A DNA stretch of 24,691 nt from a virus: IMG/VR virus record IMGVR_UViG_3300033143_000377, positions 1 to 24,691 of that record, one strand, 5' to 3'. This document shows, piece by piece, positions 4,910 through 23,468 of the stretch. The notes under the pieces were generated by a model. It saw nothing but the letters and a program-made list of their open reading frames with translations. It was not told the DNA's origin and made no database searches. The position numbers and the translations under genes are program-made. Every line of letters begins with the position of its first letter. Position 1 is the stretch's first letter.

Positions 4910-5346
4910 TGGCTACACCGACTATCATCAAGGACCACAAGACTGCCAACGTAGTTAGGGTTACTGAGTTCGGTCAATTGGTGGTTGCACCTTTGGACTA
5001 CAGCAAACCCTTGACTAAGTTACTCACGCCAGCAGACACTGCTGTCAATTTCATTGAACCAGAACAAGGTCAAAGTATTGTCATCACTGACATTATTTCT
5101 TCTGCAAACAAAGATGTTAGTACAACCACACCTGCAAACATCTTAATATATGAAGCAGATGCACCTGATGTGTTGAATGTCGGTAATTTGATACTCAACC
5201 CACAGTTGACACGTGGTGAGAACTTGCCTTTGACCGGGTTGAATCTCATCATACCTGAAGGTAAATGGGTGAATGCTTCTACAGATGATGACGTGATCAC
5301 TTTAACAATAATGTTTTACAGAGTACCAGTAGAGGTAGTGACATAA
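4909..5346 (+). CDS. Beta-rich virion protein, possible third member of the group
   Basis: The 145-residue protein begins with a hairpin like that of its two neighbours (ANVVRVTEFGQLVVAPLDY) and continues with strands such as SIVITDIISSANKDV, ANILIYEADA and GLNLIIPEGKWVNASTDDD. The VITDI...A...V.......ILIYEA pattern is one I know from small beta-sandwich phage proteins of unknown function. It is probably a virion protein. Similarity to the two upstream paralogues is clear only at the N-terminus and in the late 'IIP.G' strand. Shine-Dalgarno GAGG (4898-4901) lies 7 nt before the ATG; the stop overlaps the portal start (TAATG). Confidence 0.7.
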   Translation: MATPTIIKDHKTANVVRVTEFGQLVVAPLDYSKPLTKLLTPADTAVNFIEPEQGQSIVITDIISSANKDVSTTTPANILIYEADAPDVLNVGNLILNPQLTRGENLPLTGLNLIIPEGKWVNASTDDDVITLTIMFYRVPVEVVT

Positions 5347-7016
5347 TGCCAACTATTAACAGTTATAACAAACGACTTGAAGCATTGCGATCAGAACGTT
5401 CTTCATTCATCCCACTGTATCGTGAGTTGTCTGATTACCACCTTGCACATCGTGGTCGTTTCCTCACGTCTGATCGTAACAAAGGTTACAAACGTAACAC
5501 GAAACAGATTAACAACACTTCACGTCTATCTTCACGCACATTAGCGTCAGGAATGATGTCAGGTATCACTTCACCAGCTAGACCTTGGTTCAGATTAGGC
5601 ACTGGCGATACTAACCTCGATGACCTTCAAGCAGTGAAACACTGGCTTCATGAAGTACAGCAGATAATGTATAAGGTGTTTTCACAATCGAACACTTACA
5701 ATGCGCTTCATCAGTTGTATTCAGAGCTTGGTGTGTTCGGTACTGCTGCGATGGGGGTTTTCACAGACTTTGAAAACGTTATATGGTGTAAACCTTACAC
5801 TGTTGGCAGCTACATGCTTGGCCTGAATAGTCAGAACATTGCTGACACGTTGTACTTAGAGTATGAAATAAGTGTTGGTCAATGTATCAAACAGTTTGGT
5901 GAAGATAATGTCAGTCAATCTGTATTAGAACAATGGAAGAAAGGTAACAGTGAATCATGGGTCAAGATTGTCCATGTTACTGAACCTAATGATGACCGTG
6001 ACGGTAACAGTCCACTAGCATCTGATAAGCCGTGGCGTTCAGTCTATTATGAAGCGAAGAATGGTACTAAAGAAGGTACTGAAAAGTTCTTACGTGTATC
6101 AGGTTTTGATGAATTTCCAATACTAGCACCACGTTGGGACGTTACCGCTGAAGACACTTATGCGACTGATTGCCCAGGTATCACTGCATTAGGTGATACG
6201 AAAGCATTACAACTTGCTGAACGTCGTAAGTATCAGGCATTGGATAAAATTGTTAACCCACCACTTCAAGGTCCTTCATCAATGAAGAACAAGTTGAATG
6301 GTGGAGTCGTTGGGCCCAATGACATCATATGGCATGAACAGAATGGTGAAGGTTTACGTAGCATCTATGACTACAGACCTGACATCAATGCTATCAATGC
6401 TGAAATAGATAATGTTGAGAGTCGTGTGCAACGTGCATTCTATGAAGATTTATTCTTAATGCTGGCGCAGACTGACCGTCGTCAGATAACAGCTCGTGAA
6501 GTTGCTGAGAAGCACGAAGAGAAGTTGTTGATGTTAGGTCCTGTACTTGAACGTTTGCATACTGAATTACTTGACCCATTGATTGACAGAACATTCAGCA
6601 TACTTCAACAGAATGGTGTGCTACCGGTACCACCACCTGAACTACAGAATAAAGATTTAAACGTTGAATATGTATCAGTGTTAGCACAAGCACAACGACT
6701 TGTTGCAACAGGTGCTGTTGACAGATTGGTGCAGTTCACCAGTCAAGTCGCGACAGTGTGGCCCGAAGCACGTCACAAGGTTAATGCTTCACGTGCTATC
6801 GATGAGTACGCAGAGTCACTTGGTGTTGATCCTGCAATGGTTCGCAGTGATGACGAAGTTGCTGCAATGGCTCAAGCTGAAGCTCAACAAATGGCTCAAG
6901 CACAAGCAATGGCAAATGCAGAACAAGGTGCTAATATAGCTAAGACAGCATCAGAAACAGAAATGAGTGAAGACAATGCGCTTGGTGCAGTAATGCAACG
7001 AGCAGGTTTAGGATAA
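5346..7016 (+). CDS. Portal protein (T7-type head-to-tail connector family)
   Basis: The 556-residue protein resembles the head-tail connector family that includes T7 gp8 (536 residues). Typical features are the N-terminal RLEALRSERSSFIPLYRELS and LSSRTLASGMMSGITSPARP (residues about 60-79), the GVFGTAAMGV segment, the PRWDV...YATDCPG block, NPPLQGPSS, and the helical AFYEDLFLMLAQTDRRQITA segment that precedes the crown. Twelve copies form the channel at one vertex through which TerL pumps DNA and to which the tail adaptor docks. The C-terminus (residues about 505-530) is Ala/Gln/Met-rich. Shine-Dalgarno AGAGGT (5331-5336) lies 9 nt before the start. Confidence 0.95.
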   Translation: MPTINSYNKRLEALRSERSSFIPLYRELSDYHLAHRGRFLTSDRNKGYKRNTKQINNTSRLSSRTLASGMMSGITSPARPWFRLGTGDTNLDDLQAVKHWLHEVQQIMYKVFSQSNTYNALHQLYSELGVFGTAAMGVFTDFENVIWCKPYTVGSYMLGLNSQNIADTLYLEYEISVGQCIKQFGEDNVSQSVLEQWKKGNSESWVKIVHVTEPNDDRDGNSPLASDKPWRSVYYEAKNGTKEGTEKFLRVSGFDEFPILAPRWDVTAEDTYATDCPGITALGDTKALQLAERRKYQALDKIVNPPLQGPSSMKNKLNGGVVGPNDIIWHEQNGEGLRSIYDYRPDINAINAEIDNVESRVQRAFYEDLFLMLAQTDRRQITAREVAEKHEEKLLMLGPVLERLHTELLDPLIDRTFSILQQNGVLPVPPPELQNKDLNVEYVSVLAQAQRLVATGAVDRLVQFTSQVATVWPEARHKVNASRAIDEYAESLGVDPAMVRSDDEVAAMAQAEAQQMAQAQAMANAEQGANIAKTASETEMSEDNALGAVMQRAGLG

Positions 7017-8796: not shown

Positions 8797-9795
8797 ATGG
8801 CTACTTTAGGAAACAGCTTTATCGACTTAATCGATATTTACAAGCTTCAAGATGGTACTGGACAATTTGTTCCTGTTATCGAGATGCTTATGGAAATGAC
8901 ACCGATATTAGATGATGCCATTGCGGTAGAATGTAATAAAGGCACTACTCATTTACACACGGTTCGCTCAGGTTTACCATCAGTTACATGGGGTAAATTG
9001 TATGCGGGTATTCCGAACAGTAAAGGTGCAACTGCTCAAGTTGAAGACACTACAGGTTTCGTTGAAGGTCTTAGTACCGTCGATAAACGTTTACTTGATT
9101 TGTCTACTAATGAAGGTGCTGTACGTTTATCTGAAGCACAAGCGTATCTTGAAGCAATGGCGCAAGAAGTAGGTACGAAAGTATTCTACGGTAACTCTGC
9201 ATCAGATCCTGAAGAATTCATGGGCCTTGCACCACGTTTCAACGACTTGTCAGCACCTAACGGTGGTCAGATTATCGACGCTGGTGGTACTGGTGGTGAT
9301 AACACGTCTATCTGGTTTGTTACATGGGGTGATAATCAGTGTAACTTGCTTTACCCTAAAGGTACTCAAGCGGGTGTTCAACGCGAAGACCACGGCCAAC
9401 AACGTGTCACCGATGGTGCAGGTAATGCTTACTACGCTATGGAAGAAAAATTCACATGGCATGTGGGCATGGCTGTTAAAGATTGGCGTTATGTATCTCG
9501 TGTAGCTAATATTGATGCTAGTGACTTGAAAGCGGGTACTGTTGCATTGTACGACTTCATGCGTAAAGCATACTACAAGTTGCAGAACCGTCGTGTTGCG
9601 GGTGGTAAAATGGCTATCTATTGTAACCGCGATGTACTTGAAGCACTTGATGCTTTAGCTACTAATGCTGGTGCAACTGACAGTTTCATTCGCTTGAAAC
9701 CTATGGAAATCGAAGGTAAAGAAGTAATGACTTACCGTGGTATTCCTATTCGTGAAAGTGATTCAATCATCAACGCTGAAGCTCGTGTGGTTTAA
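8797..9795 (+). CDS. Major capsid protein, GP7/Bbp17 type
   Basis: The 332-residue protein is close in length to epsilon15 gp7 (335 residues) and resembles the GP7-type capsid family with an HK97 fold used by epsilon15 and BPP-1. Recognisable stretches include the start SFIDLIDIYKLQDG, the VIEMLMEMTPILDD helix, LPSVTWGKLYAGIPNSKG, TKVFYGNSASDPEEFMGLAP, and MAIYCNRDVLEALDALA near the end. It forms the icosahedral shell. No delta-domain or cleavage site is seen, which agrees with a separate scaffold gene upstream. Shine-Dalgarno GAGGTGA (8786-8792) is strong, as expected for a highly expressed gene. Confidence 0.93.
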   Translation: MATLGNSFIDLIDIYKLQDGTGQFVPVIEMLMEMTPILDDAIAVECNKGTTHLHTVRSGLPSVTWGKLYAGIPNSKGATAQVEDTTGFVEGLSTVDKRLLDLSTNEGAVRLSEAQAYLEAMAQEVGTKVFYGNSASDPEEFMGLAPRFNDLSAPNGGQIIDAGGTGGDNTSIWFVTWGDNQCNLLYPKGTQAGVQREDHGQQRVTDGAGNAYYAMEEKFTWHVGMAVKDWRYVSRVANIDASDLKAGTVALYDFMRKAYYKLQNRRVAGGKMAIYCNRDVLEALDALATNAGATDSFIRLKPMEIEGKEVMTYRGIPIRESDSIINAEARVV

Positions 9796-11310: not shown

Positions 11311-13632
11311 ATGCCACAGATCATTCAACGCAGTTTCACCAGTGGTGAGATTGCGCCAGCGTTACAGTCACGAGCTGACTTAGGTAAATACGCTACCGGC
11401 TTAAACAAGTGTGAGAATTTCCTCGTGCGCCCACAAGGTGGTGTCTACTCACGCCCTGGTCTACGTTTCATCGGTGAACTTGATGACTCTTCTAAAGTAG
11501 GTCGATTAATCCCATTCAGCTTCAACACTGAACAAACTTACATGTTAGTGTTCGAGCATCTAAAAGTGCGCGTGATTAAAGATGGTGGTTTCGTTTTAGC
11601 CGGTGGAGGTCCTGCAATATTTGAACTTGCTACACCTTACACTGAAGAACAGTTACCCCGTTTAGGTTTCACTCAGAACGCTGATGTGATGACCATTGTC
11701 CACCCTGACCATGAACCTTCAAACCTTAACCGATTGGCTGATGACAATTGGACATTGACAGCGATTGACTATTCATCGAATGTCACACCACCAGTGTTTA
11801 GTGTTGGGTCAGTATCAAGAGCAATCACAGGTATCACACAAGCTAATCCCGCAGTGGTCACTGCTGTGGCTCATGGGTATGCCACTGGTAACTTAATCTA
11901 CATCGACAACGTACAAGGTATGGTTGAGGTTAATGGTCGAAATTTCATTATAACAGTGTTGACTAATGACACATTTGAACTCAACGGTGAAGATTCAACG
12001 AGTCACACAGCTTACGCAATAGATGGTAACGCGGATAGACAAAATGGGGCTACTACTGTTGGTGAAGGTTTCGGTGATTTCGATAAGACTTACGCTTACG
12101 TTGTGACGGCAGTGAATGACGCAGGAACTGAGTCACTAGCATCAGTTGAGACAAGTATAACCACTAAGTCAATATCACAGACAGGTGGTGTCAGGCTGAC
12201 ATGGGACACTGTATCTGAAGCCGCATATTATCGAGTATACAAAGACCCGTCACTTGGTACAGGTATATACGGTTGGATTGGTGATTCTAACAATTTGTCA
12301 TTTGATGACTACAACCTTGCACCGATCACAAGTGATGCTCCACCACTAGATCGTCAACCATTCAATGGTGTTGGTAATAAACCTTCTGCTGTGACTTATT
12401 ACCAACAGCGTCAAGTGTTCGCTAATACTTACAATGAACCACAAGCAACGTTCACTACACAAGTAAATAATTTTGATTCATTGCGCACATCTAACCCTGC
12501 ACGTGATGACGATGCGGTAACCTTCACCATTGCAGCACAACAAGTGAACGAGATACGTCACCTGTTGCCGTTGGACTCTTTAATATTACTCACATCAGGT
12601 GGTGAGTGGATTATGACAGAAGGTCAAGATCAGGTATTAACACCTTCAACAATCGGTGTAAGACCTCAATCATTTAACGGTTGTTCAATAGTACCACCAG
12701 TGGTAATTAACAGTACCGCATTATTCCTTCAAGACAAAGGTGCACGACTTCGTGACTTAGGTTATGAGTTCAGTAGTGACAAGTATACCGGTAACGATTT
12801 GTCACTGATGTCAGAACACCTGTTTGAAGGTAAGCAAATTACATCGATGACTTATGCTGCTGAACCCGATGGTATCGTTTGGTGCATACGCGATGATGGT
12901 GTGATGTTAGGTCTAACTTATCAACGTGAACATCAGGTGTGGGGTTGGCACCAGCATAACACTCAAGGTTCATTTGAGTCAGTAGCATCTATTGCTGAAG
13001 ATGACCGTGATGCTGTCTACGTTATTGCTAAACGAAATATTGACGGTAATGATGTGCGGTACGTTGAGCGAATGGAGAAGCGTGAGTCCGTTAATGCTGA
13101 AGATTGTTTCTACATTGATTCAGGTCTGACTTATGACGGTGCACCTGCAACGGTGATAAGCGGTCTTGATCACCTTGAGAATGAAACAGTATCAATACTT
13201 ACGGATGGTTACACTGTGCCTGATCAAGTTGTCACATCGGGTGCAATCACATTAGAACGTGCAGCATCTAAAGTTCACGTGGGTCTAAGTTATACGCCAC
13301 GTATTGAAACGCTTGACATTGACACACCATCTGCCATCCAAACAATCAAAGCTCAGTCAGTGTCAGTTTCAAAGGTCACTATCGAGGTCGAAGGTTCACG
13401 TGGGGGATGGGTTGGACCACGGCAGGACAATGGTTCTGATCCTATAATGAATGAGATTAAACCACGTTTCGACGGTGACAACTATGACCCAATTTCATTG
13501 AAAACTTACAAACAAGAATTGTTCATACAACCACAATGGTCGAAAGGTGGTGGTCTTAGAATTGAGCAGCGTGCACCTTTACCAATGGCTATACTGTCAG
13601 TAATCCCTCAACTCGACGTGGGTGGTAACTAA
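11311..13632 (+). CDS. Tail nozzle / tail tubular protein B-like (T7 gp12-like) with FCCH-like and FN3-like insertions
   Basis: The 773-residue protein is close in length to T7 gp12 (794). The N-terminal SFTSGEIAPALQSRADLGKY, GLNKCENFLVRPQGGVYSRP and GLRFIGE segments (residues about 8-57) are the hallmark of nozzle proteins. Residues about 170-236 fit a ubiquitin-activating E1 FCCH-like module (VTAVAHGYATGNLIYIDNVQ, then NGRNFIITVLTNDTFEL). Residues about 254-337 look like a fibronectin type III domain (KTYAYVVTAVNDAGTES, then VRLTWDTVSEAAYYRVYK). The nozzle fold then resumes with YYQQRQVFANTYNEPQATF and ILLTSGGEWIM. Six copies form the tail tip that carries fibres. AGGAG (11299-11303) lies 7 nt before the ATG. 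Confidence 0.9.
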   Translation: MPQIIQRSFTSGEIAPALQSRADLGKYATGLNKCENFLVRPQGGVYSRPGLRFIGELDDSSKVGRLIPFSFNTEQTYMLVFEHLKVRVIKDGGFVLAGGGPAIFELATPYTEEQLPRLGFTQNADVMTIVHPDHEPSNLNRLADDNWTLTAIDYSSNVTPPVFSVGSVSRAITGITQANPAVVTAVAHGYATGNLIYIDNVQGMVEVNGRNFIITVLTNDTFELNGEDSTSHTAYAIDGNADRQNGATTVGEGFGDFDKTYAYVVTAVNDAGTESLASVETSITTKSISQTGGVRLTWDTVSEAAYYRVYKDPSLGTGIYGWIGDSNNLSFDDYNLAPITSDAPPLDRQPFNGVGNKPSAVTYYQQRQVFANTYNEPQATFTTQVNNFDSLRTSNPARDDDAVTFTIAAQQVNEIRHLLPLDSLILLTSGGEWIMTEGQDQVLTPSTIGVRPQSFNGCSIVPPVVINSTALFLQDKGARLRDLGYEFSSDKYTGNDLSLMSEHLFEGKQITSMTYAAEPDGIVWCIRDDGVMLGLTYQREHQVWGWHQHNTQGSFESVASIAEDDRDAVYVIAKRNIDGNDVRYVERMEKRESVNAEDCFYIDSGLTYDGAPATVISGLDHLENETVSILTDGYTVPDQVVTSGAITLERAASKVHVGLSYTPRIETLDIDTPSAIQTIKAQSVSVSKVTIEVEGSRGGWVGPRQDNGSDPIMNEIKPRFDGDNYDPISLKTYKQELFIQPQWSKGGGLRIEQRAPLPMAILSVIPQLDVGGN

Positions 13633-14093
13633 TGATTGAATGGGTAAAGCCAACAGCAGCACTAGTTGAATCCATTGCTGCTGACATGCGACAAGCTGAC
13701 GTTGAAGAAGTGTGGGCCTCGAATCATCACACACCGATTGAATCGATGATGAAGGGTTGGGCTTTGTCTGACTTCTCAACGATTGCAGTGAACGAGATAG
13801 GTGAGCCATTGGTGATGATTGGTCTCGTTAAGCGCGACGTGTTGACGGGGTCAGGTGTCGTGTGGATGCTTGGCGCTAACAGAGCGATGAAGCATAAGAA
13901 AGAATTTTTTACACAGACTAAACCCGTCATTGATGAAATGCTGACTATATGTCTTAGATTGTGTAACATGGTGCACAGTAAGAATACAAACAGTATTACA
14001 TGGTTGAAGTGGTTAGGGTTCACAATTGAAGAACCTGAACCGCATGGTCCTGATAATGAACTGTTCCATCGATTCCATTTAGAAAGGTATTAA
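13632..14093 (+). CDS. T7 gp13-like virion/GNAT-fold protein
   Basis: The 153-residue protein resembles T7 gp13 (138 residues) and the related GNAT-like DUF2833 group. The central GWALSDFSTIAVNEIGEPLV (residues about 42-61), VVWMLGANRAM (about 76-86) and the final NTNSITWLKWLGF (about 118-130) are the usual landmarks. In T7 it is needed for morphogenesis of infective particles, although it is not a major virion component. Whether it retains acetyl-CoA binding is not clear; the canonical R/Q-x-x-G-x-G/A loop is not evident. Its start overlaps the stop of the nozzle gene (TAATG), and it is followed by the three ejection-protein genes as in T7. Confidence 0.8.
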   Translation: MIEWVKPTAALVESIAADMRQADVEEVWASNHHTPIESMMKGWALSDFSTIAVNEIGEPLVMIGLVKRDVLTGSGVVWMLGANRAMKHKKEFFTQTKPVIDEMLTICLRLCNMVHSKNTNSITWLKWLGFTIEEPEPHGPDNELFHRFHLERY

Positions 14094-14095
14094 AC

Positions 14096-14641
14096 ATGTG
14101 TGAACCAGCAACGATTATGGCAGTGACGGCAGTGGTATCTGCGGGTTTTGCAGCCAACCAACAAATTAAACAAGGTAAGTTTCAGGAGTCTACTGCTGAG
14201 TACAATGCTCGTGTAGCTGAGAATCAAGCAGAAGAAACCCGTAACGCTGGTGTTGAAGCGGAGAACATTCAACGCAAGAAGACTGCTGAACTGTTATCCA
14301 AACAACGTGCACAGCTCGGTGCTGCTAATGTTGATTTGTCATCAGGTTCAGCTTTACAGTTACAAGAAGAAACTGAAGCACTTGGTGAAGCAGACGCTTT
14401 ACGTATCCGCAGTAACTTTGAAGGTCAAGCCGGTGCATTGAACACTGGTGCTGACTTAACTGCTGCATCAGGTCAATTCGCTGAATCAGCAGGTAAAAGT
14501 GCTGCAACGGGTACATTGTTGAGTGGTGCGGGTAAAGTGATAGGGTCTGGTGTTGCTGATAAGTGGTTCACACCAACGAGTGCCGCGTCGCAAAACTTAG
14601 CCGGTACACCAACGGTTGATTACAATTTAGGAGTCGCGTAA
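14096..14641 (+). CDS. Internal virion (ejection) protein, T7 gp14-like
   Basis: The 181-residue protein has the layout of T7 gp14 (196 residues). A short N-terminal hydrophobic helix ATIMAVTAVVSAGFAANQ (residues 5-22) is followed by a long Ala/Glu/Gln/Arg-rich helical region (KFQESTAEYNARVAENQAE, then QRKKTAELLSKQRAQLGAAN). Conserved LSSGSALQL comes next, then a Gly/Ala/Ser-rich tail. gp14 proteins are ejected with the genome and are thought to form the outer-membrane channel. GAAAGG (14082-14087) lies 8 nt before the ATG. The stop overlaps the next start (TAATG). Confidence 0.8.
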   Translation: MCEPATIMAVTAVVSAGFAANQQIKQGKFQESTAEYNARVAENQAEETRNAGVEAENIQRKKTAELLSKQRAQLGAANVDLSSGSALQLQEETEALGEADALRIRSNFEGQAGALNTGADLTAASGQFAESAGKSAATGTLLSGAGKVIGSGVADKWFTPTSAASQNLAGTPTVDYNLGVA

Positions 14642-16272
14642 TGCCTAAAGTCGCAACATACGGACAGCAACAGGTTCGCACCAATGTGGTCAGTCAACCA
14701 CGTGCTGATGCTTCAGCAGGTAACGCTGCGTTTCGAGCTAACACTCAAGCGGTTCAAGGTCTTGCATCTGTTGCTCAAGCGGGTGCACAAATGGTTCAAC
14801 GCATTGACACCACTTCAGCAGAAGAAGCATTGGTGCAATTCGAGCGTGACAAAAACAATTTATTCTTTGAACCTGAGACTGGTTACTTCAACACTCAAGG
14901 TAAGAATGCTTTCGATAACGCCAATGCTGCGAGTGAGTCACTAGTTGATTTGAAGAAGAAGTATGGTGAGTCACTTAACCAGAATTCACGCACCATGTTT
15001 GACAAGTCTGCTGATTTACATATCACACGTAGTCAAGCAGACATTGCACGTCATTCAGCTAAAGGTTTGAAGTCGTGGGAAGTTGCCACGATTAGATCAC
15101 AAGTTGAGAACACAGTTGAGAATGCTTCATTGTACTGGAATCAACCTGACAAGTTAGCAGTGCAGAATGCATTAGGTCGTCAAGCGATCCTTGATGCTGC
15201 TGAACTTGAAGGTATCGGTGCTGAAGCAACTAACGAACGGTTGCAGACCTACGACTCATCATTCACTAAAACAGCTATTACATCGGCTGTCAGTAGCAGT
15301 GCTGCTGAAGGTGCGACCATGTTAGAGAAACACGGTGCTAAGTTGGAAGGTCCTGACAAAGTTAGAATTGAAAAAGATATTGTGGCTAAAGCTAAAGCTG
15401 AGAAACTGCAAGCTGACTCACAGCAAGCTATTCTTACTGGTACAAAGTTAGTCGATATGTATGATAGTCGTGAAGAAGTACGTGAACAGGTTAACAGTAT
15501 CGAAGACCCTGAGTTACGTAAGAAAACGATGACTGAATCAATGCGACAATTCAACCTGAAGAAACAGGGTGAGTCTGAAGCACAAGCAGGTTCATACGAG
15601 GATGCTGAGTCACACATCATTGAAGGGGGCTCTGCTGAAACATACCAAGCTATTGACCCTGAAGGTTGGGAGCGTCTATCTACTAAACAGAAAGTTAGCA
15701 TTGAATCAGGTAAAGCGGTCATCACTGATTGGAATGTTTACACTGACTTGGTGTTATTACCTAAAGAACAATTATCAAAGATCAACCCTACTGAACACTT
15801 CCACCAACTTGCACCATCTGAACGTAAGAGCTTGGTGAGTGCGGTTAAGACTGCGGGTGGGACTGGTTCAAGCAAAGACAAGATTGACCATCAGATAGGT
15901 CGCACACGTAGTGCACAGACGACCATTGCCGTTGAGCAAGTGATAGGTAAGAAGTCGAAGTGGAATGATAAGCGACGTAAACAAGCTGATGCATTCTATG
16001 ACTTGTTAGATGGTGAAGTGAAGTTCCGTGAAAGCGAAAAAGGGAGCAACTTGTCATCAGAAGAATTCACGAATGTGTTGTCAGATTTAACTCGTGAGGT
16101 TACTATTGAGCGTAGTGCATTCGGTGTTGATTTCCTATACCCTGATGTAGAACAAAATGTTACAGAGATACCACCTGAAAATGTAAGAGTGTTAAGTAAA
16201 TTCTTACGTGATAACGGTATACCGGTTACTTCTGATAACTTACTTAAAGCTCAACGACAGGCAACAAAATAA
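14641..16272 (+). CDS. Internal virion (ejection) protein, T7 gp15-like position
   Basis: The 543-residue protein is highly helical, polar and low in cysteine, as expected for the second ejection protein; T7 gp15 is longer (747). Residues about 74-120 contain FFEPETGYFNTQGKNAFDNA and LVDLKKKYGESLNQNSRTMF, a YFN.QGK.A motif I recognise from gp15-like proteins. The rest is mainly long helices (VEQVIGKKSKWNDKRRKQA, for example). No transglycosylase, endopeptidase or other catalytic signature is visible. In T7 this protein forms part of the periplasmic tunnel. AGGAG (14629-14633) lies 7 nt before the ATG. The stop overlaps the start of the giant ejection protein (TAATG). Confidence 0.75.
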   Translation: MPKVATYGQQQVRTNVVSQPRADASAGNAAFRANTQAVQGLASVAQAGAQMVQRIDTTSAEEALVQFERDKNNLFFEPETGYFNTQGKNAFDNANAASESLVDLKKKYGESLNQNSRTMFDKSADLHITRSQADIARHSAKGLKSWEVATIRSQVENTVENASLYWNQPDKLAVQNALGRQAILDAAELEGIGAEATNERLQTYDSSFTKTAITSAVSSSAAEGATMLEKHGAKLEGPDKVRIEKDIVAKAKAEKLQADSQQAILTGTKLVDMYDSREEVREQVNSIEDPELRKKTMTESMRQFNLKKQGESEAQAGSYEDAESHIIEGGSAETYQAIDPEGWERLSTKQKVSIESGKAVITDWNVYTDLVLLPKEQLSKINPTEHFHQLAPSERKSLVSAVKTAGGTGSSKDKIDHQIGRTRSAQTTIAVEQVIGKKSKWNDKRRKQADAFYDLLDGEVKFRESEKGSNLSSEEFTNVLSDLTREVTIERSAFGVDFLYPDVEQNVTEIPPENVRVLSKFLRDNGIPVTSDNLLKAQRQATK

Positions 16273-19200
16273 TGGCAGATTTAAACCTTGAGAATATTGA
16301 CCTCGGTGGATTCGGATTAAACGACGAAGACCCACAACAGACACAGCTTAACGCTAACATGAACGAGGCTATCAAGGTTGACCCTGTTCAACATGCTAAG
16401 ACAACACAACTCAGTCAAGAATCTGGTGTACCTGAATTCGCTGTCAAATCTGATCCTGCACAAGTTGAGCATAAGCTGAAGCTTGACAAGATTAATCTTG
16501 AAGGTATGACACAGCGTGCACCGAAGACTTCCAAGTATCTCACTGATGATGTAAACAACTCAGTCATCGCCCAAGAAGATGTTATCAGTAACCTGCTTGA
16601 AGGTATCGAAAAGACATTTGATGGCATGGGTCGTTCCATTGGTATCAGCTTCGAGTCACAAGCTAAAGGCGCATTACTAGCGGGTAACGAAGGTACATCT
16701 GACCGCATTGAAGACTTGATACCAGCTAGTGCTATGCCCATGGGTATGGAGGCTGATGCAATGTTCATGTCACGTGAGCTTGCTGCTAACTTCGGTATTG
16801 AAACAGATGAACAACTTACTGCTGCTAAACTGCAAACATCTGAACGATTGATTGGTGAGATTCAATCACTTGATGCAGAGCGTAAACTGTTAACGCCTAA
16901 AGACATGAACATTGTGCAAGAAGGTGTTCGCGCAGGTGTAGAGTCACTTGCTAACATGGCACCCGGTTTCAGTTTAATGGTGTTATCTGGTGGTCGTGCG
17001 GCCCCATTACTTACAACGATCGGTGCACAAACATTCTCAGGGTCATTCGGTAAAGGTCGTGCTGAAGGTTTGAACTCTGAAGAAGCTGCATGGTTTGCTA
17101 GCATCGATGCAGCTATTGAAGTGGGAACTGAGTTGATACCACTGAAAACACTATCGACCATGCTTACCGGTAGCACTAAAGGTTTCACTAAAGGTGCGTT
17201 GAAGTTTGCTGTACAAGAGATGGGTACGGAGCAACTTGCTACTGCATTACAGACAGTCAATTCATACGCGTTCGGTTTAGATAAAGAATTGGAAAACGCC
17301 ACGACAACGGGTGAGATGATTGAGATACAACTTCGTCGTCAAGCAGTTACTGCCATAGCTACGATTGTTGCAGGTGGTACACAGATAGCTGCGGTTGGTA
17401 CAGTCAAGAAGACTGTTGCAAAATTAACACAAACAGAACAACAACAAGAAAATCAAGGTGAGGTTGAACAACGTAACCTCGATAAGCTGAGTGCTGACTC
17501 TGATAAGTCTAAACTGAAAGAACGTGACGTTGAATCATTCAAGCAGTTTGTGCGTGAAGCTGATGGTGAGAACAATACCAACGTGTTCATCGATGGTGTT
17601 CAAACATCACTATACTTACAAAGTAAAACCCCTGAAGAAGTTCAGGATGACCCTGCGTTGACGATGCTTGCGAACGCGATGCGTGAGTCACGTGCCACGG
17701 GTACTGACATAGCGATACCGATTGACGACTTCATGGGTGACATCACCGGTACTGAATCGTTCGTTGAGTTACGTGAACACATGACAATGAGTGATGAAAC
17801 AGTTTCACCATTTCGTCAAGAACAGCATAAAGTTGAGACTGAATCATATGTTGAGACATTGATTGCTGAAGCAGAAGAGAACGCATCTGAGTACGTTGAA
17901 GCACAAGAGATTTACACCAGTGTTCGCGATCAACTGATTGACACTGGTGCAGTGAACTCTGCTAATGCTTCAATCATGGCGCAGATGGTACCAGCGTGGG
18001 CAACAGCTCAAGCACGTCGTAGTGGTAAGTCAGTACAGCAAGTTTACTCTGATGCAGGTCTAACAATTGAAGGTCCTCAGTCGGGTGAGTTGTCACGTCT
18101 TGAAGGTGAGCAGGTGTTGACTCAAGAAAATTTGACACCGATCACTGACATTACATCAGAAGGGTCTGTGCAGGTTGACAGTAATAATCCTTTCTTGTTT
18201 GATTTTGATCCTAATACTTTCACTGTTAGGGAAAGTGTATTCAAAGATGTTGAAGGTGACACTCGTGACCCACTTAAACTTAAACCTATAACCGTTACAG
18301 TTCGCGATGGTGAGACTGTCATACTGGATGGTCATCACAGAACTAAGATAGCGCAAGAAACCGGTAATGCAGTGCGTGCTGTTGTGATACCTGCTGAAGA
18401 TGTTGACGCAATGGAAGCTGATGGGGTTCACCCTGCTGAAATGAGAAGTGAATGGGTCGCATCAGGTAAAATGAGTGGTCGAAAACAACAAGAACAGTTT
18501 GCACAATCACCATTGAAATCTGTTGACCTTATAGATTTTAGCGATCAACAACTCGCGGTGAAGATGGTTGAACTTGATGCAGGTACACCATTGTTCAATG
18601 AGTTTGATACTGAGCAATTCCCACATGTCGATACTGTCAAAAAAGAGTCAGGTCAATCACCAGTGTTAGGTTTTCATAACATGATTCGCAACAGTTATGT
18701 AATGGGTGATGGTACGGTTTATCGTGCTAACCATAAAACAGGTAATGTGACGAAGGTTGATGAAATTGAATCGCGTAACTTTTTAAAGAATAAAATATTT
18801 AGTGCACAACGAAAAGCTGAACCAACTGTTGAAGAGGTTCAGGTTGAATCGGTACAAGAACAAATTCAAGAAGCTGCTGATAAAATTGAAATCACTGATC
18901 GTGAAGCTGCTGATACCAACTCATCCGAGTTTAAAAACTGGTTTGATGATTCTGTTGTGACTAAAGAAGACGGTTCACCATTGACCGTTTATCATGGTAC
19001 ACGTGCAGCAGTTGATGATTCATTCGTGTTCGACTATTCACGCATCGGTGAACAAGGTCGTGCGGAAGGTGCAGGTTTCTATTTCACACCAAATAAAAAC
19101 GTTGCTGACGGCTATGCAGATAATGGCGCAACACTTGAAGTTTACCTGTCCATTCAGAACCCTATCGATTTTAATCAAGAAGGTTTTGAAGATGAACAAC

Positions 19201-22200
19201 TGTTCAACATCGTTAAGCGTATTGCCGAATTAGAAGCTATTGAAGATGAAGCGAGTATTGCTGACGGTTTCCTGTCTAACTTTGGTGATGTATCTTTTGA
19301 AGGTGTAGATAGTGTAATACAGAATGCTGCTGACCTTATGTCAACCGATACCGCGCTTGATCAACTCAGTGGTATGGTTGGCGCAGGTGTCGGGGTTGAA
19401 GTAGTCAATCGAGCAACACAAGAAATCACAGGACACGATGGTGTGGTATCACAAGGTTTCAGTGGTCAAGGTGGTAAAGATGACCCGTTAATATATGTTG
19501 CATTCTTCCCTGAACAAATTAAATCAGCACAGAACATTGGTAAGTTCGATCCGAAAAGTCCTGACATATTCAAGCAAAACCAACCAGACACCGATGCTGC
19601 ACGTGGTTACTACGATCCTGAAAACAGTATCATACGTTTGACTGAAGCATCCGACTTGTCAACCTTCCTTCATGAGTTTGCACACTTCATGTATGAGATG
19701 GAAGCGTCAGGTAACACTGACATGAATGAAAGCATTAACAACTGGTACAAACGCAACGGTGAAGAAGTTGCTGCTGAAGCTACTAAGAACCTTAACGGTA
19801 ACTTTGATGCTATCAAACAGGGTGAACGTACTAACGACAACAAGCAGACTGTCACTGAAGCTGATGTGGTGAACTACCTTGACACAGGTTCATCAGGTAG
19901 CAAAGATAAAGATGCTGCTGTTCGTCGTGCTGTGCATGAGCAGTTTGCCCGTGGCTTTGAAACATATTTGATGGAAGGTAAAGCACCAAGTGTTGAACTG
20001 CGTAATGCATTCAGAACCTTTGCACGTTGGTTAGGTCAGATTTATCAATCACTACGTGGTGACTTAAACGTGAAACTTGATGCTGAGATGCGTGAAGTGT
20101 TTGATCGTTTACTTGCAACTGAAGAACAGATTGCTGCTGCTGAGTCGCGTGCACGAGTTGAACCAATGTTCACTGATGCTGCTATGGCAGGTATGACTGA
20201 AGAAGAATTCTCTGACTACCAACAACGTCAGGAAAAAGTCAAAGATGTTCAGACTGAAACATTGCGCGACCAAATGATTAAAGCGTTAACACGTAAGACT
20301 AAGAAGTGGTGGAACGAAGAAAAGTCTGATGTTATCGATGAAGAAATGGGTCGATTATCTACTGAACAAGTTTACTCTACTGCGGCACGTTTACGTGATG
20401 GTGACATCAAGCTTGACACTGCTTCAGTAAAAGAGATAGCTGGTGAAGAACGTACCGATAAGCTTGGTCGCAAGTCCATCCGTGTATCGGACAAGTTACG
20501 TGGTATGACTGCGAAAGGTCAGAAAGGTGTTCACCCTGATGAAGCTGCTGCATTCTTAGGTTACTCATCTGGTGCTGAGATGTTGAACGAGTTAATGACT
20601 GCACCACCAATTAAAGAAACTGCTGAGACTAATGCAGAAGCTATCATGGTTGAACGTCACGGTGACATCTTCACCGATGGTACGATTGAGCAACAAGCTG
20701 ATGAAGCAGTGCAGAATGAAGAACGTGGTAAGTTGATTCTTCATGAGTTGAAGATTCTTGCACGTGGTACGAACCAACGCACACTTGACCGTCAAACGGT
20801 GAAGACGATTGCTGAAGAACGTATCGGTAACTTGTCATTCAAAGAAATTCACCCTGGTAAGTATCGTAAAGCTGAAGTACGAGCTGCACAAGAATCTGCA
20901 CGCATGTTAGCTGAAGGTAATAAAGACGGTGCTGCACAAGCTAAAGCACGTCAATCTTTAAACTATTACCTTGGTATGGCTGCTACTGAAGCGAAGAATG
21001 AAACAGTTAAAATTGTTGACCGTATGGGTCGTTACAATAAGAAGAAGGTACGTGAAGAAATTCAGAAAGCTGAAGGTGGTTACTGGGGTCAGATAGTCAA
21101 GATACTTGAACGCTTTGAATTCAGAAAAACTGCATCATTAGCATCTGTTGATCAAGTTAACCAAGACATTAACACGTGGGCTAAAGAACGCATGGACATC
21201 GACGGTGACGGTCTTGTACTTCACAATGCGGTGTTAAATGAATCGTATGTCACCCATTGGAAAAATGTTGCTTACAGCGATTTACAGGGTGTCAATGACT
21301 CAGTGAAGAACATTGAACATGTTGCACGTTACGCTAACAAGCTGACACGGATGGGTGAAGAAATTGAATACAATAAATTAGTCGATAAGTTGGTGACAAC
21401 TGCGGCTGAAACTGGTACGGGTCGATTCAAAAAATCTGCAAGTGTTGCTGATGACCTGAGTTGGGTCGAAGCTAAAGGTCGTTGGTCGATGGCTCAGATG
21501 TCAAAGATACCTTACATGATGTCGTGGATGGATGGGATGGATCGAGTAGGTACATGGTTCACCACATTCTCACAACCGATGACGGACGCGTATAGTGCTG
21601 AGTTAGAATTGTTCAAAGAAGTTGGTGAACCTGTCATTGACATGATCAAGAACAGAAGTAAAGCAGACGAGAAACGTCACAATACAACATTCTTCATCCC
21701 TGAAATTAAAGACACAGCAGGTGGCACTCATACCGGTAACTTGAAAGGTCATGAGATTGTTGCAGTTGCATTGAACACTGGTAATGCTGGTAACCTTAGA
21801 AAGCTTTTACTCGGTGAACAGTGGGCCACTGAAGACAGTGGTGACATCAGCTTAGAAAATCCTAAGTTGCAAGCTGTGCTGAAGCATATGACTGAATCCG
21901 ATTGGAATATGGTTCAGACTATTTGGGATCAGATAGATATTCTTTATCCTAAACTTGCTGAAGTGCACCGTCGCACTACTGGACTTGTACCACCTAAAGT
22001 TGAAGCTACACCAGTTGTGACAGACTTCGGTACATTTAAAGGTGGTTACTACCCTGTTAAATATGACCCAACTCGTGACAATAAAGCTGCTGAGTTTGAA
22101 GAACGTAAAGATGCAGAAGTGGGCTCAATGTTTGCGAGTAACGCCAGCATACAATCATCGGTGAACACTGGTTCAACGAATGAGCGTACCGGTTACTTTG

Positions 22201-23468
22201 CACCAATGCATTTGACATTGAACGTGGTTCCTAATCATATTCAAGAAACGATACATTACATCACCCACCATGACGCAGTGCGTGAAGTCAACAGATTACT
22301 ACGTGACCCACGGGTGAAGGATGCTGTGACTTCTAAACTTGGCCCTGAAGAATTCGCACAACTTAAACCATGGTTGAATGATATTGCTAAAGATGGACGC
22401 AATGCACCGAATAAATCGATTGTTGATGCGATGTTCAACAAATTACGTTTAGGTACGACACTTGGTGTGATGGGCTTCAAAGCTTCAACGGGTATCATTC
22501 AGATAAGTGGTTTGTCTAACACCATTGCTGAAGTGGGTATGGGTCCAGTGATGCAGTCTATGCGTACAATACTTGGCAGCCCTAGCACGATAAAAAGTGC
22601 ATGGGAGTTTGCTAATGAGAAATCTAAAGTATTGAAGCATCGTACTAAGACAATGGATCGCGAGATGATGAACGCAATGCAACAACTCGAAAGTAAACGC
22701 GGTGTGTTAGCCGCGGTTCAAGAAGCTTCAATGAAGCACATTGCATACATACAGACGTATATGGTGGATTTACCATCATGGCACGCTGCATACATTAAGG
22801 AACTCAGTGAGTCAGGTGATGAAGCTAAAGCTTTTCAGTATGCAGATTGGGTGATTGAGAATGTCCAAGGGTCAGGTGTAACTAAAGACATGGCTGCATT
22901 GATGCGTAACCAAACGAAGACACACACTATATTCACCATGTTCATGACATTCTTCAGTGCATTGTGGAACTTGCAACGTGACATGGTGAAAGGTGGTAAG
23001 TCTGGTGCATACTCAACAACTACGTTAGCCGCTAAGACAATGTTCCTTTTCACCATACCTGTATTGTTTGAGATGATAATGCGTGGTGAATTTGCTAAAG
23101 AAGATGAAGAACCTGAAGAGTTACTACAAAAGTCATTGACTAAAGTTGCACTATACCCTATTACATCTATACCGTTTGTTCGTGATGTAGTCAACGGTGT
23201 CTTCGGTGGGTACGGTTACAATGCTTCACCTGTTACGTCTATCGTAGAACAAGGGTTGCAAGGGTTACAAGGTGCGGGTAAAGCGGTTCTTGCTGATGAT
23301 GAACTGACAAAGAGTCAAGTTAAATCAATCAGTAAATTAGCAGGTGCAGGTTTAGGTGTACCAGGTACAGGTCAAGCATGGGCAACAGGTGAACATTTGT
23401 ATGACGTTCTCGCTGAAGGTGAAGAGTTCACCACACACCAATTCTTGTTTGGTCCTGCGCGTAAATAG
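16272..23468 (+). CDS. Giant polyvalent ejection protein: ParB-like, ART-like and zincin-like segments
   Basis: The 2398-residue protein fills the place of T7 gp16 (1318). Segments in order: disordered acidic N-terminus (1-110); helical hydrophobic region with possible membrane helices (225-258, 358-378); ParB/sulfiredoxin-like segment (about 645-735) with ILDGHHRTKIAQE (684-696); ADP-ribosyltransferase-like segment typical of polyvalent proteins (about 895-1105) with VYHGTR (906-911), GFYFT (935-939), YLSIQNP (958-964) and FFPEQIKSA; gluzincin-like HEFAH (1134-1138) with possible third ligand E1223 in HEQFARGFE; long helical central region; DIDGDG loop (1642-1647); LPD38-like C-terminus with hydrophobic stretches (2218-2235, 2252-2268). 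No transglycosylase motif was found. Such proteins enter the host with the DNA, where the enzymatic segments could modify or cut host proteins. Domain calls are by motif recognition. Confidence 0.85.
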   Translation: MADLNLENIDLGGFGLNDEDPQQTQLNANMNEAIKVDPVQHAKTTQLSQESGVPEFAVKSDPAQVEHKLKLDKINLEGMTQRAPKTSKYLTDDVNNSVIAQEDVISNLLEGIEKTFDGMGRSIGISFESQAKGALLAGNEGTSDRIEDLIPASAMPMGMEADAMFMSRELAANFGIETDEQLTAAKLQTSERLIGEIQSLDAERKLLTPKDMNIVQEGVRAGVESLANMAPGFSLMVLSGGRAAPLLTTIGAQTFSGSFGKGRAEGLNSEEAAWFASIDAAIEVGTELIPLKTLSTMLTGSTKGFTKGALKFAVQEMGTEQLATALQTVNSYAFGLDKELENATTTGEMIEIQLRRQAVTAIATIVAGGTQIAAVGTVKKTVAKLTQTEQQQENQGEVEQRNLDKLSADSDKSKLKERDVESFKQFVREADGENNTNVFIDGVQTSLYLQSKTPEEVQDDPALTMLANAMRESRATGTDIAIPIDDFMGDITGTESFVELREHMTMSDETVSPFRQEQHKVETESYVETLIAEAEENASEYVEAQEIYTSVRDQLIDTGAVNSANASIMAQMVPAWATAQARRSGKSVQQVYSDAGLTIEGPQSGELSRLEGEQVLTQENLTPITDITSEGSVQVDSNNPFLFDFDPNTFTVRESVFKDVEGDTRDPLKLKPITVTVRDGETVILDGHHRTKIAQETGNAVRAVVIPAEDVDAMEADGVHPAEMRSEWVASGKMSGRKQQEQFAQSPLKSVDLIDFSDQQLAVKMVELDAGTPLFNEFDTEQFPHVDTVKKESGQSPVLGFHNMIRNSYVMGDGTVYRANHKTGNVTKVDEIESRNFLKNKIFSAQRKAEPTVEEVQVESVQEQIQEAADKIEITDREAADTNSSEFKNWFDDSVVTKEDGSPLTVYHGTRAAVDDSFVFDYSRIGEQGRAEGAGFYFTPNKNVADGYADNGATLEVYLSIQNPIDFNQEGFEDEQLFNIVKRIAELEAIEDEASIADGFLSNFGDVSFEGVDSVIQNAADLMSTDTALDQLSGMVGAGVGVEVVNRATQEITGHDGVVSQGFSGQGGKDDPLIYVAFFPEQIKSAQNIGKFDPKSPDIFKQNQPDTDAARGYYDPENSIIRLTEASDLSTFLHEFAHFMYEMEASGNTDMNESINNWYKRNGEEVAAEATKNLNGNFDAIKQGERTNDNKQTVTEADVVNYLDTGSSGSKDKDAAVRRAVHEQFARGFETYLMEGKAPSVELRNAFRTFARWLGQIYQSLRGDLNVKLDAEMREVFDRLLATEEQIAAAESRARVEPMFTDAAMAGMTEEEFSDYQQRQEKVKDVQTETLRDQMIKALTRKTKKWWNEEKSDVIDEEMGRLSTEQVYSTAARLRDGDIKLDTASVKEIAGEERTDKLGRKSIRVSDKLRGMTAKGQKGVHPDEAAAFLGYSSGAEMLNELMTAPPIKETAETNAEAIMVERHGDIFTDGTIEQQADEAVQNEERGKLILHELKILARGTNQRTLDRQTVKTIAEERIGNLSFKEIHPGKYRKAEVRAAQESARMLAEGNKDGAAQAKARQSLNYYLGMAATEAKNETVKIVDRMGRYNKKKVREEIQKAEGGYWGQIVKILERFEFRKTASLASVDQVNQDINTWAKERMDIDGDGLVLHNAVLNESYVTHWKNVAYSDLQGVNDSVKNIEHVARYANKLTRMGEEIEYNKLVDKLVTTAAETGTGRFKKSASVADDLSWVEAKGRWSMAQMSKIPYMMSWMDGMDRVGTWFTTFSQPMTDAYSAELELFKEVGEPVIDMIKNRSKADEKRHNTTFFIPEIKDTAGGTHTGNLKGHEIVAVALNTGNAGNLRKLLLGEQWATEDSGDISLENPKLQAVLKHMTESDWNMVQTIWDQIDILYPKLAEVHRRTTGLVPPKVEATPVVTDFGTFKGGYYPVKYDPTRDNKAAEFEERKDAEVGSMFASNASIQSSVNTGSTNERTGYFAPMHLTLNVVPNHIQETIHYITHHDAVREVNRLLRDPRVKDAVTSKLGPEEFAQLKPWLNDIAKDGRNAPNKSIVDAMFNKLRLGTTLGVMGFKASTGIIQISGLSNTIAEVGMGPVMQSMRTILGSPSTIKSAWEFANEKSKVLKHRTKTMDREMMNAMQQLESKRGVLAAVQEASMKHIAYIQTYMVDLPSWHAAYIKELSESGDEAKAFQYADWVIENVQGSGVTKDMAALMRNQTKTHTIFTMFMTFFSALWNLQRDMVKGGKSGAYSTTTLAAKTMFLFTIPVLFEMIMRGEFAKEDEEPEELLQKSLTKVALYPITSIPFVRDVVNGVFGGYGYNASPVTSIVEQGLQGLQGAGKAVLADDELTKSQVKSISKLAGAGLGVPGTGQAWATGEHLYDVLAEGEEFTTHQFLFGPARK

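Follow-up and report, generated by a model that had tools for sequence, protein, structure and literature searches.

The giant protein and its cargo slot

The window analysed here is the IMG/VR virus record IMGVR_UViG_3300033143_000377 at its full record length of 24,691 nucleotides, and the subject of this report is one of its genes, which encodes a Bbp10-like giant internal virion protein at the position of T7 gp16 (Table 1). An initial annotation of the same DNA had proposed a single 2398-residue chain in a gp16-like position, and both points hold, given the one open frame at 16272-23468 (+) and the T7-type gene order gp14-gp15-gp16 at the locus. The best PHROG match of the protein is phrog_9880 (E=6.8e-294), and Bbp10 of the Bordetella phage BPP-1, which serves as the model for the family, is 28% identical to it over residues 1110-2342. 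The best annotated relatives of the window phage are Vibrio phages; it is probably of the marine, Vibrio type, with a giant protein that is probably injected together with the DNA.

With the constant core of the protein as the tblastn query, 61 viral loci were collected (labelled L001 and so on, L001-L004 being four isolated Vibrio phages), and 56 of the encoded proteins span both sides of a variable middle part, here termed cargo slot 1. Residues 1-618 and 1104-2398 of the window protein are about 65-84% identical to the proteins of the four isolates, and the middle is unmatched. In the isolate Vibrio phage MZH0603, residue 618 runs straight into the equivalent of residue 1104, leaving a nearly empty slot of 3 amino acids; at this one position the other homologues carry up to 1578. 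The slots of L014 and L041 (445 versus 647 amino acids) are without similarity and have sharp breakpoints, and their flanks are 92 and 99% identical in protein and 95.5 and 96.6% in DNA. Likewise, the window and L016 have unrelated slot contents between flanks of 85 and 92% protein identity, and the isolates L002 and L004 carry different cargo (330 versus 165 amino acids) between flanks of 98 and 93% identity. Such close pairs, with similar flanks around unrelated slots, prove replacement of the cargo. Between the L001 and L002 slots the main difference is a GNAT unit that L001 has in addition, at the front. The protein thus contains a cargo slot with identifiable contents that are swapped between phages. 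Since MZH0603 was isolated without cargo in slot 1, this phage, at least, appears able to do without such cargo on the host used in the laboratory.

Two further insertion points lie in the constant core. Slot 2, where it is filled, opens exactly after residue 1184, between two predicted zinc-ligand helices, and its cargo measures 130-390 amino acids (ART, GNAT or other). Slot 3 accepts a module that belongs to the same conserved family in all six of its carriers (e.g. L042 5204-5674, L045 10742-11212 and L048 10757-11221).

Cargo of the window and of its homologues

The motifs listed by the initial annotation were all found at their positions: ILDGHHRTKIAQE at 684-696, VYHGTR at 906-911, GFYFT at 935-939, HEFAH at 1134-1138 and HEQFARGFE at 1222-1230. 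The first three lie in slot 1, whose load in the window comprises a ParB/Srx-like unit, a module designated M and an ADP-ribosyltransferase (ART). The ART assignment is solid on sequence grounds: the ART-PolyVal profile (PF18760) scores 69.3 bits against a curated cut-off of 31.2, and of the H-Y-D residues H908 is kept in 93% and D1056 in 88% of aligned copies, with Y937 (65%) and Y948 (88%) as candidates for the catalytic tyrosine. The ART-like segment and the conservation of its key residues are therefore confirmed. The whole unit spans residues 880-1102, its last conserved block reaching residue 1102, the slot end.

The ParB-like segment is upheld as likely. Its D-G-[HN]-H-R motif is invariant in 17 aligned ParB/Srx-like sequences and matches the G-x-H-R active-site motif; a domain of L084 is 49% identical to unit 619-745, and a divergent ParB/Srx-like domain occupies the entire 128-residue slot of L062. 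A low-confidence model shows a strand-strand-helix core (E60-64, E68-73, H75-84, E88-93). Compared with the PDB, a profile of these sequences had five top matches that were all of the ParB/Srx type, each insignificant (E 0.37-1.8): three were SbnI, one was a nuclease with a ParB domain, and one was the ParB-like 1vk1. Pfam, including the ddrB-ParB (PF18763) and ParB_N (PF02195) profiles, gave no match to this part of the window, and neither did a Foldseek search of the PDB with an AlphaFold2 (AF2) model of the unit and module M give a significant one. The unit very probably has the ParB/Srx fold, and may act as a nuclease, an NTPase or a kinase. A D-G-[HN]-H-R ParB/Srx-like domain missed by Pfam is seen across L084-L102, often at the C terminus of other phage proteins, and might merit recognition as a separate family. 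Module M is confidently folded in the model (predicted local distance difference test score about 95); no relative outside the Bbp10-like family and no significant PDB fold match were found for it.

Pfam recognises an enzyme domain in at least 44 of 55 slots: ART-PolyVal in 25, PBECR5 in 15, GNAT in about 7, GGDEF in 6 and RadC in 3, together with single matches to zeta toxin, polyvalent kinase, PBECR1, nucleotidyltransferase and metallopeptidase. The slot of BPP-1 holds a PBECR1 nuclease. ART, GNAT, GGDEF, PBECR, RadC, kinases and ParB are among the domains listed for polyvalent proteins by Iyer et al. 2017 (PMC5512222). Cargo common to relatives is under purifying selection (nonsynonymous divergence, dN, 0.01-0.12 versus synonymous divergence, dS, 0.21-0.94), and units move between slots, as shown by L024 slot 2 and L026 slot 1 (78% identity). 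No consistent defence family emerged from a PADLOC scan of the slots. Among individual loads, one slot of L067 (6839-9985) combines two ART domains with LPD23 and another metallopeptidase-like domain, and a zeta-toxin-like kinase (L022, 9158-10003) is the sole recognised cargo of its ejection protein.

A tag at the borders of the cargo

Both borders of slot 1 carry a short tag of the form [FL]xQ, and in the window a further copy separates the ParB-like unit from module M; FAQ also stands directly before module M in L001, L014 and L017. At the right border the tag is present in 51 of 56 homologues (background 0.11; within 20 residues upstream of the core), or in 54 with the wider pattern [FLYM]xQ, and at the left border in 47 (background 0.06). 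Control patterns at the right border show no enrichment, with F/L-xN in 5, F/L-xE in 9, F/L-xK in 2 and F/L-xS in none of the 56. Inserts in slot 2 have the tag on the right in every case and on the left in nearly every case, and empty sites retain one copy, LTQ in MZH0603 and IKQ at slot 2 of the window (AIKQ, residues 1180-1183). All 15 PBECR5 domains start immediately after a tag, irrespective of what comes before. These tests were designed post hoc on related sequences, and clustering by cargo served as the guard; the tag is present in 21 of 21 unrelated cargo-tail clusters.

The 54 right-border tags, whose middle residue varies, are encoded by 36 distinct 9-mers, which places the selection on the protein and rules out a DNA-level recombination signal as the origin of the tag. 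The tag goes along with the cargo: ART units end in FKQ-like sequences and PBECR5-containing units in LFQ, the ending shared by L024 slot 2 and L026 slot 1. An origin in the ART fold itself is ruled out by the ends of ART domains elsewhere, since those of other phage and plasmid proteins finish in FSR-like sequences or at the stop codon. All 25 ART copies in the Bbp10-like family end in hxQ, versus 2 of about 15 elsewhere, and these two may belong to related prophages. IRFS, DILFSR, DIAFSR and similar ends were often observed in such polyvalent proteins (L076, L083, L118, L119, L121, L124 and L126), and are perhaps an analogous tag of those other families.

The constant core and the neighbouring genes

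H1134, E1135 and H1138 of the HExxH motif are identical in all 56 homologues covering the site, among them the BPP-1 protein, which is 28% identical to that of the window. Residues 700-1000 of Bbp10 are the seed of the zincin-like CLCA_X family (Lenart et al. 2013, PMC3650047), and window residues 1110-2342 align to Bbp10 773-1987 with E=4.8e-130, a similarity to the seed that supports membership. The family consensus HExxHxxxD is departed from at its last position in the window (HEFAHFMYE), as it is, likewise with E, in the seed Bbp10 (HESGHFFLE). The initial annotation had treated the ParB-like, ART and zincin-like segments as equivalent payload. This does not hold: exchange is confined to the ParB-like and ART parts, and the HExxH segment belongs to the invariant core, where an enzyme of processing or structure is more likely than an effector. 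That annotation had also overlooked that slot 1 is hypervariable and has a natural empty allele, that the zincin houses a second slot and that [FL]xQ stands between the units.

Several disparate domains in one large chain (ART-PolyVal, LPD22, ParB-like and HExxH), encoded next to virion genes, place the protein among the polyvalent proteins, as had been suggested. Tail genes are also among the neighbours. Bacterial genomes scanned with the zincin region yielded three distant loci only, and thereby neither a host nor a close prophage. Elsewhere in the window, an HNH endonuclease-like gene (482-997) lies upstream of the small terminase gene. Limnohabitans phage DC33 (L011, PQ492659.1) has a BPP-1-like giant protein, yet its record says Inoviridae, which suggests an error of taxonomy.

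Table 1. Features of the giant gene and its neighbours in the window
Feature	Residues	Position	Strand	Evidence or remark
Portal		5346-7016		Neighbouring gene
Capsid protein, GP7 family		8797-9795		Neighbouring gene
Internal virion protein		13632..14093	+	Neighbouring gene; phrog_308, E=7.6e-38
T7 gp14-like internal virion protein		14096..14641	+	Pfam PF24072, E=1.4e-10; phrog_418
Protein at the gp15 position, resembling phage structural lysozyme families		14641..16272	+	phrog_10475, E=8.4e-32
Whole gene, Bbp10-like giant internal virion protein, gp16 position	1-2398	16272..23468	+	2398 aa, one open frame
LPD22 domain	28-120	16353..16631	+	Pfam PF18834, E=1.4e-7
VLTQ, left border tag of slot 1	615-618	18114..18125	+	
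Cargo slot 1	616-1104	18117..19583	+	3 to 1578 aa in homologues; contents unrelated between close relatives
ParB/Srx-like unit	619-745	18126..18506	+	D-G-H-H-R at 686-690; GHHR nt 18330-18341
QFAQ, tag separating the ParB-like unit from module M	742-745	18495..18506	+	
Module M	746-851	18507..18824	+	Also in L001, L002, L014, L017, L033, L075
ART-PolyVal domain	899-1088	18966..19535	+	Pfam E=7.7e-19; H908, Y937 or Y948, D1056
IFKQ, right border tag of slot 1	1099-1102	19566..19577	+	
Constant core (HExxH region and large C-terminal part)	1105-2398	19584..23465	+	61 loci, tblastn
HEFAH, zincin-like motif of constant core	1134-1138	19671..19685	+	56/56 homologues
AIKQ and slot 2 insertion point, empty in window	after 1184	19809..19826	+	Filled in 15/56 homologues
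HEQFARGFE, predicted third-ligand helix	1222-1230	19935..19961	+	E1230 98%, H1222 96%
Slot 3 point, module absent in window	1375/1376	20394..20399	+	About 115 aa in 6/56 homologues

Discussion

The reading that we favour, with a probability of about 0.5, is that of an ejected polyprotein whose interchangeable effectors are divided by processing sites, the [FL]xQ tags, with the zincin inside the protein as the probable protease. The constant N-terminal part and the constant HExxH and C-terminal core would form a delivery machine, and phages would recombine various enzyme units, each with an [F/L]-x-Q at its end, into the open slot between them. Phage DNA and giant protein would be ejected together, the tags would be cut either before packaging or after ejection, the built-in zincin being the likeliest protease, and the freed enzymes would act on the host or its defences during the first minutes. 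The fuller claim, that a universal [F/L]-x-Q cleavage signal and a built-in zincin release effectors plugged into fixed slots and exchangeable between phages, is put forward tentatively, at a little under even odds. We infer the presence of the 2398-residue protein in the virion and its ejection with the DNA, and likewise its cleavage and the identity of the protease. A thermolysin-like cut before F/L would suit a zincin, although this is a guess; an analogous unit-releasing role has been proposed for the metallopeptidases of polyvalent proteins (PMC5512222).

Several observations weigh against processing by the zincin. The AF2 model of the zincin region, built from 28 sequences, contains helices only, and Foldseek found no significant fold match for it in the PDB; the sole significant match in the BFVD is a fragment of 60% identity. 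The zincin-like segment proposed by the initial annotation is thus upheld by the motif and the family, and its fold was left unconfirmed by structure prediction. Neither virion proteomics nor cleavage data for the Bbp10-like family were found in the literature. The residue after the Q of the tag is proline in 12 of the 56 homologues, and so frequent a proline speaks against a cut directly after Q. Finally, the giant ejected virion RNA polymerase (vRNAP) of phage N4, which has an HExxH domain, was reported to be packaged unprocessed (PMC5512222). The prolines and the N4 precedent favour the main alternative, in which the cargo is injected and works while attached, the tag then serving as a linker or as a short docking site during folding, packaging or passage through the tail. 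The stretch directly before the HExxH of N4 vRNAP also lacks an [FL]xQ, a point in favour of this alternative that fits cleavage as well and proves nothing. On the other hand, a fixed hydrophobic residue and a fixed Q around a free middle residue resemble a processing site, and the tag flanks unrelated units on both sides and is absent from homologous ARTs of other families. We regard the linker as a serious but less probable explanation.

It is rather improbable that the tags are cut by another protease, of the phage head or of the host, with the HExxH region as a structural relic or a host-acting enzyme. Proline, frequent after Q, is unusual at the S1' site of a zincin, and window 8085-8777 matches PHROG 458, annotated 'protease'. 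However, the 230-residue product of that gene is an acidic, low-complexity, scaffold-like protein without an evident catalytic motif, the major capsid protein lacks [FL]xQ, and HExxH and the third-ligand helix are nearly invariant among the homologues. Less probable still is a zincin that is itself an effector cutting host proteins, as the initial annotation implied, independently of the cargo slot. Zincin effectors do occur in polymorphic toxins, and the option has been named for polyvalent proteins (PMC5512222), but here the zincin is constant while all effector-like parts vary, and slot 2 interrupts it in 15 of 56 homologues with the motifs kept. Faulty metagenome assembly as the source of the diverse slots can be dismissed, for although IMG/VR contigs make up most of the loci, the isolates L001-L004 show the same diversity, including the empty slot of MZH0603.

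If processing of the tags by the zincin is correct, phages could exchange cargo without redesigning the delivery machine. Anything found between two [FL]xQ tags, module M for example, is a candidate early effector or counter-defence enzyme. Neither the polyvalent-protein class nor the ART family nor the zincin-like segment is new; what is new here is the [F/L]-x-Q at the end of nearly every cargo unit, whatever its fold. Neither exchangeable slots in one orthologous ejection protein nor a family-wide [FL]xQ was found in the literature searched, which covered few subscription journals and is weak evidence in this respect; in the passages of PMC5512222 that were searched, fixed exchangeable slots and the tag are not described.

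Bbp10 of BPP-1 (PMC3650047) has an orthologous core, with HExxH in register at residue 797 and the same HEQFARGFE helix, and differs in carrying a PBECR1 nuclease in the slot where the window has the ParB-like unit, M and ART. The podovirus ejectosome with T7 gp16 (PMC8954989) shares the position after gp14- and gp15-like genes, but the window protein is twice the size of gp16, and the lysozyme-like similarity resides in the preceding window gene; no similarity in sequence to gp16 itself came to light, although no test was aimed at it. N4 vRNAP (PMC12633501) is likewise giant and ejected, with a payload upstream of HExxH and a large helical C-terminal part; homology of that part to the window core was tested, and no sequence similarity was detectable. 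T4 Alt is a model for a virion-packaged, injected ART (PMC5512222), although it is of the R-S-E type, whereas the window ART is of the H-Y-D type. Closest in conception are the polyvalent proteins, for which PMC5512222 describes large virion-associated proteins joining ART, ParB-like, zincin and LPD domains, together with the idea that metallopeptidases free the units. The window family differs from them in its fixed insertion points, its recent cargo replacement and its empty allele within one orthologous protein, and in the family-specific [FL]xQ tag that stands between units. For the polyvalent proteins, known since 2017, the way in which the domains are separated has so far been a guess; with defined candidate cut sites, a candidate protease and natural empty and swapped variants, the Bbp10-like family makes that guess directly testable.
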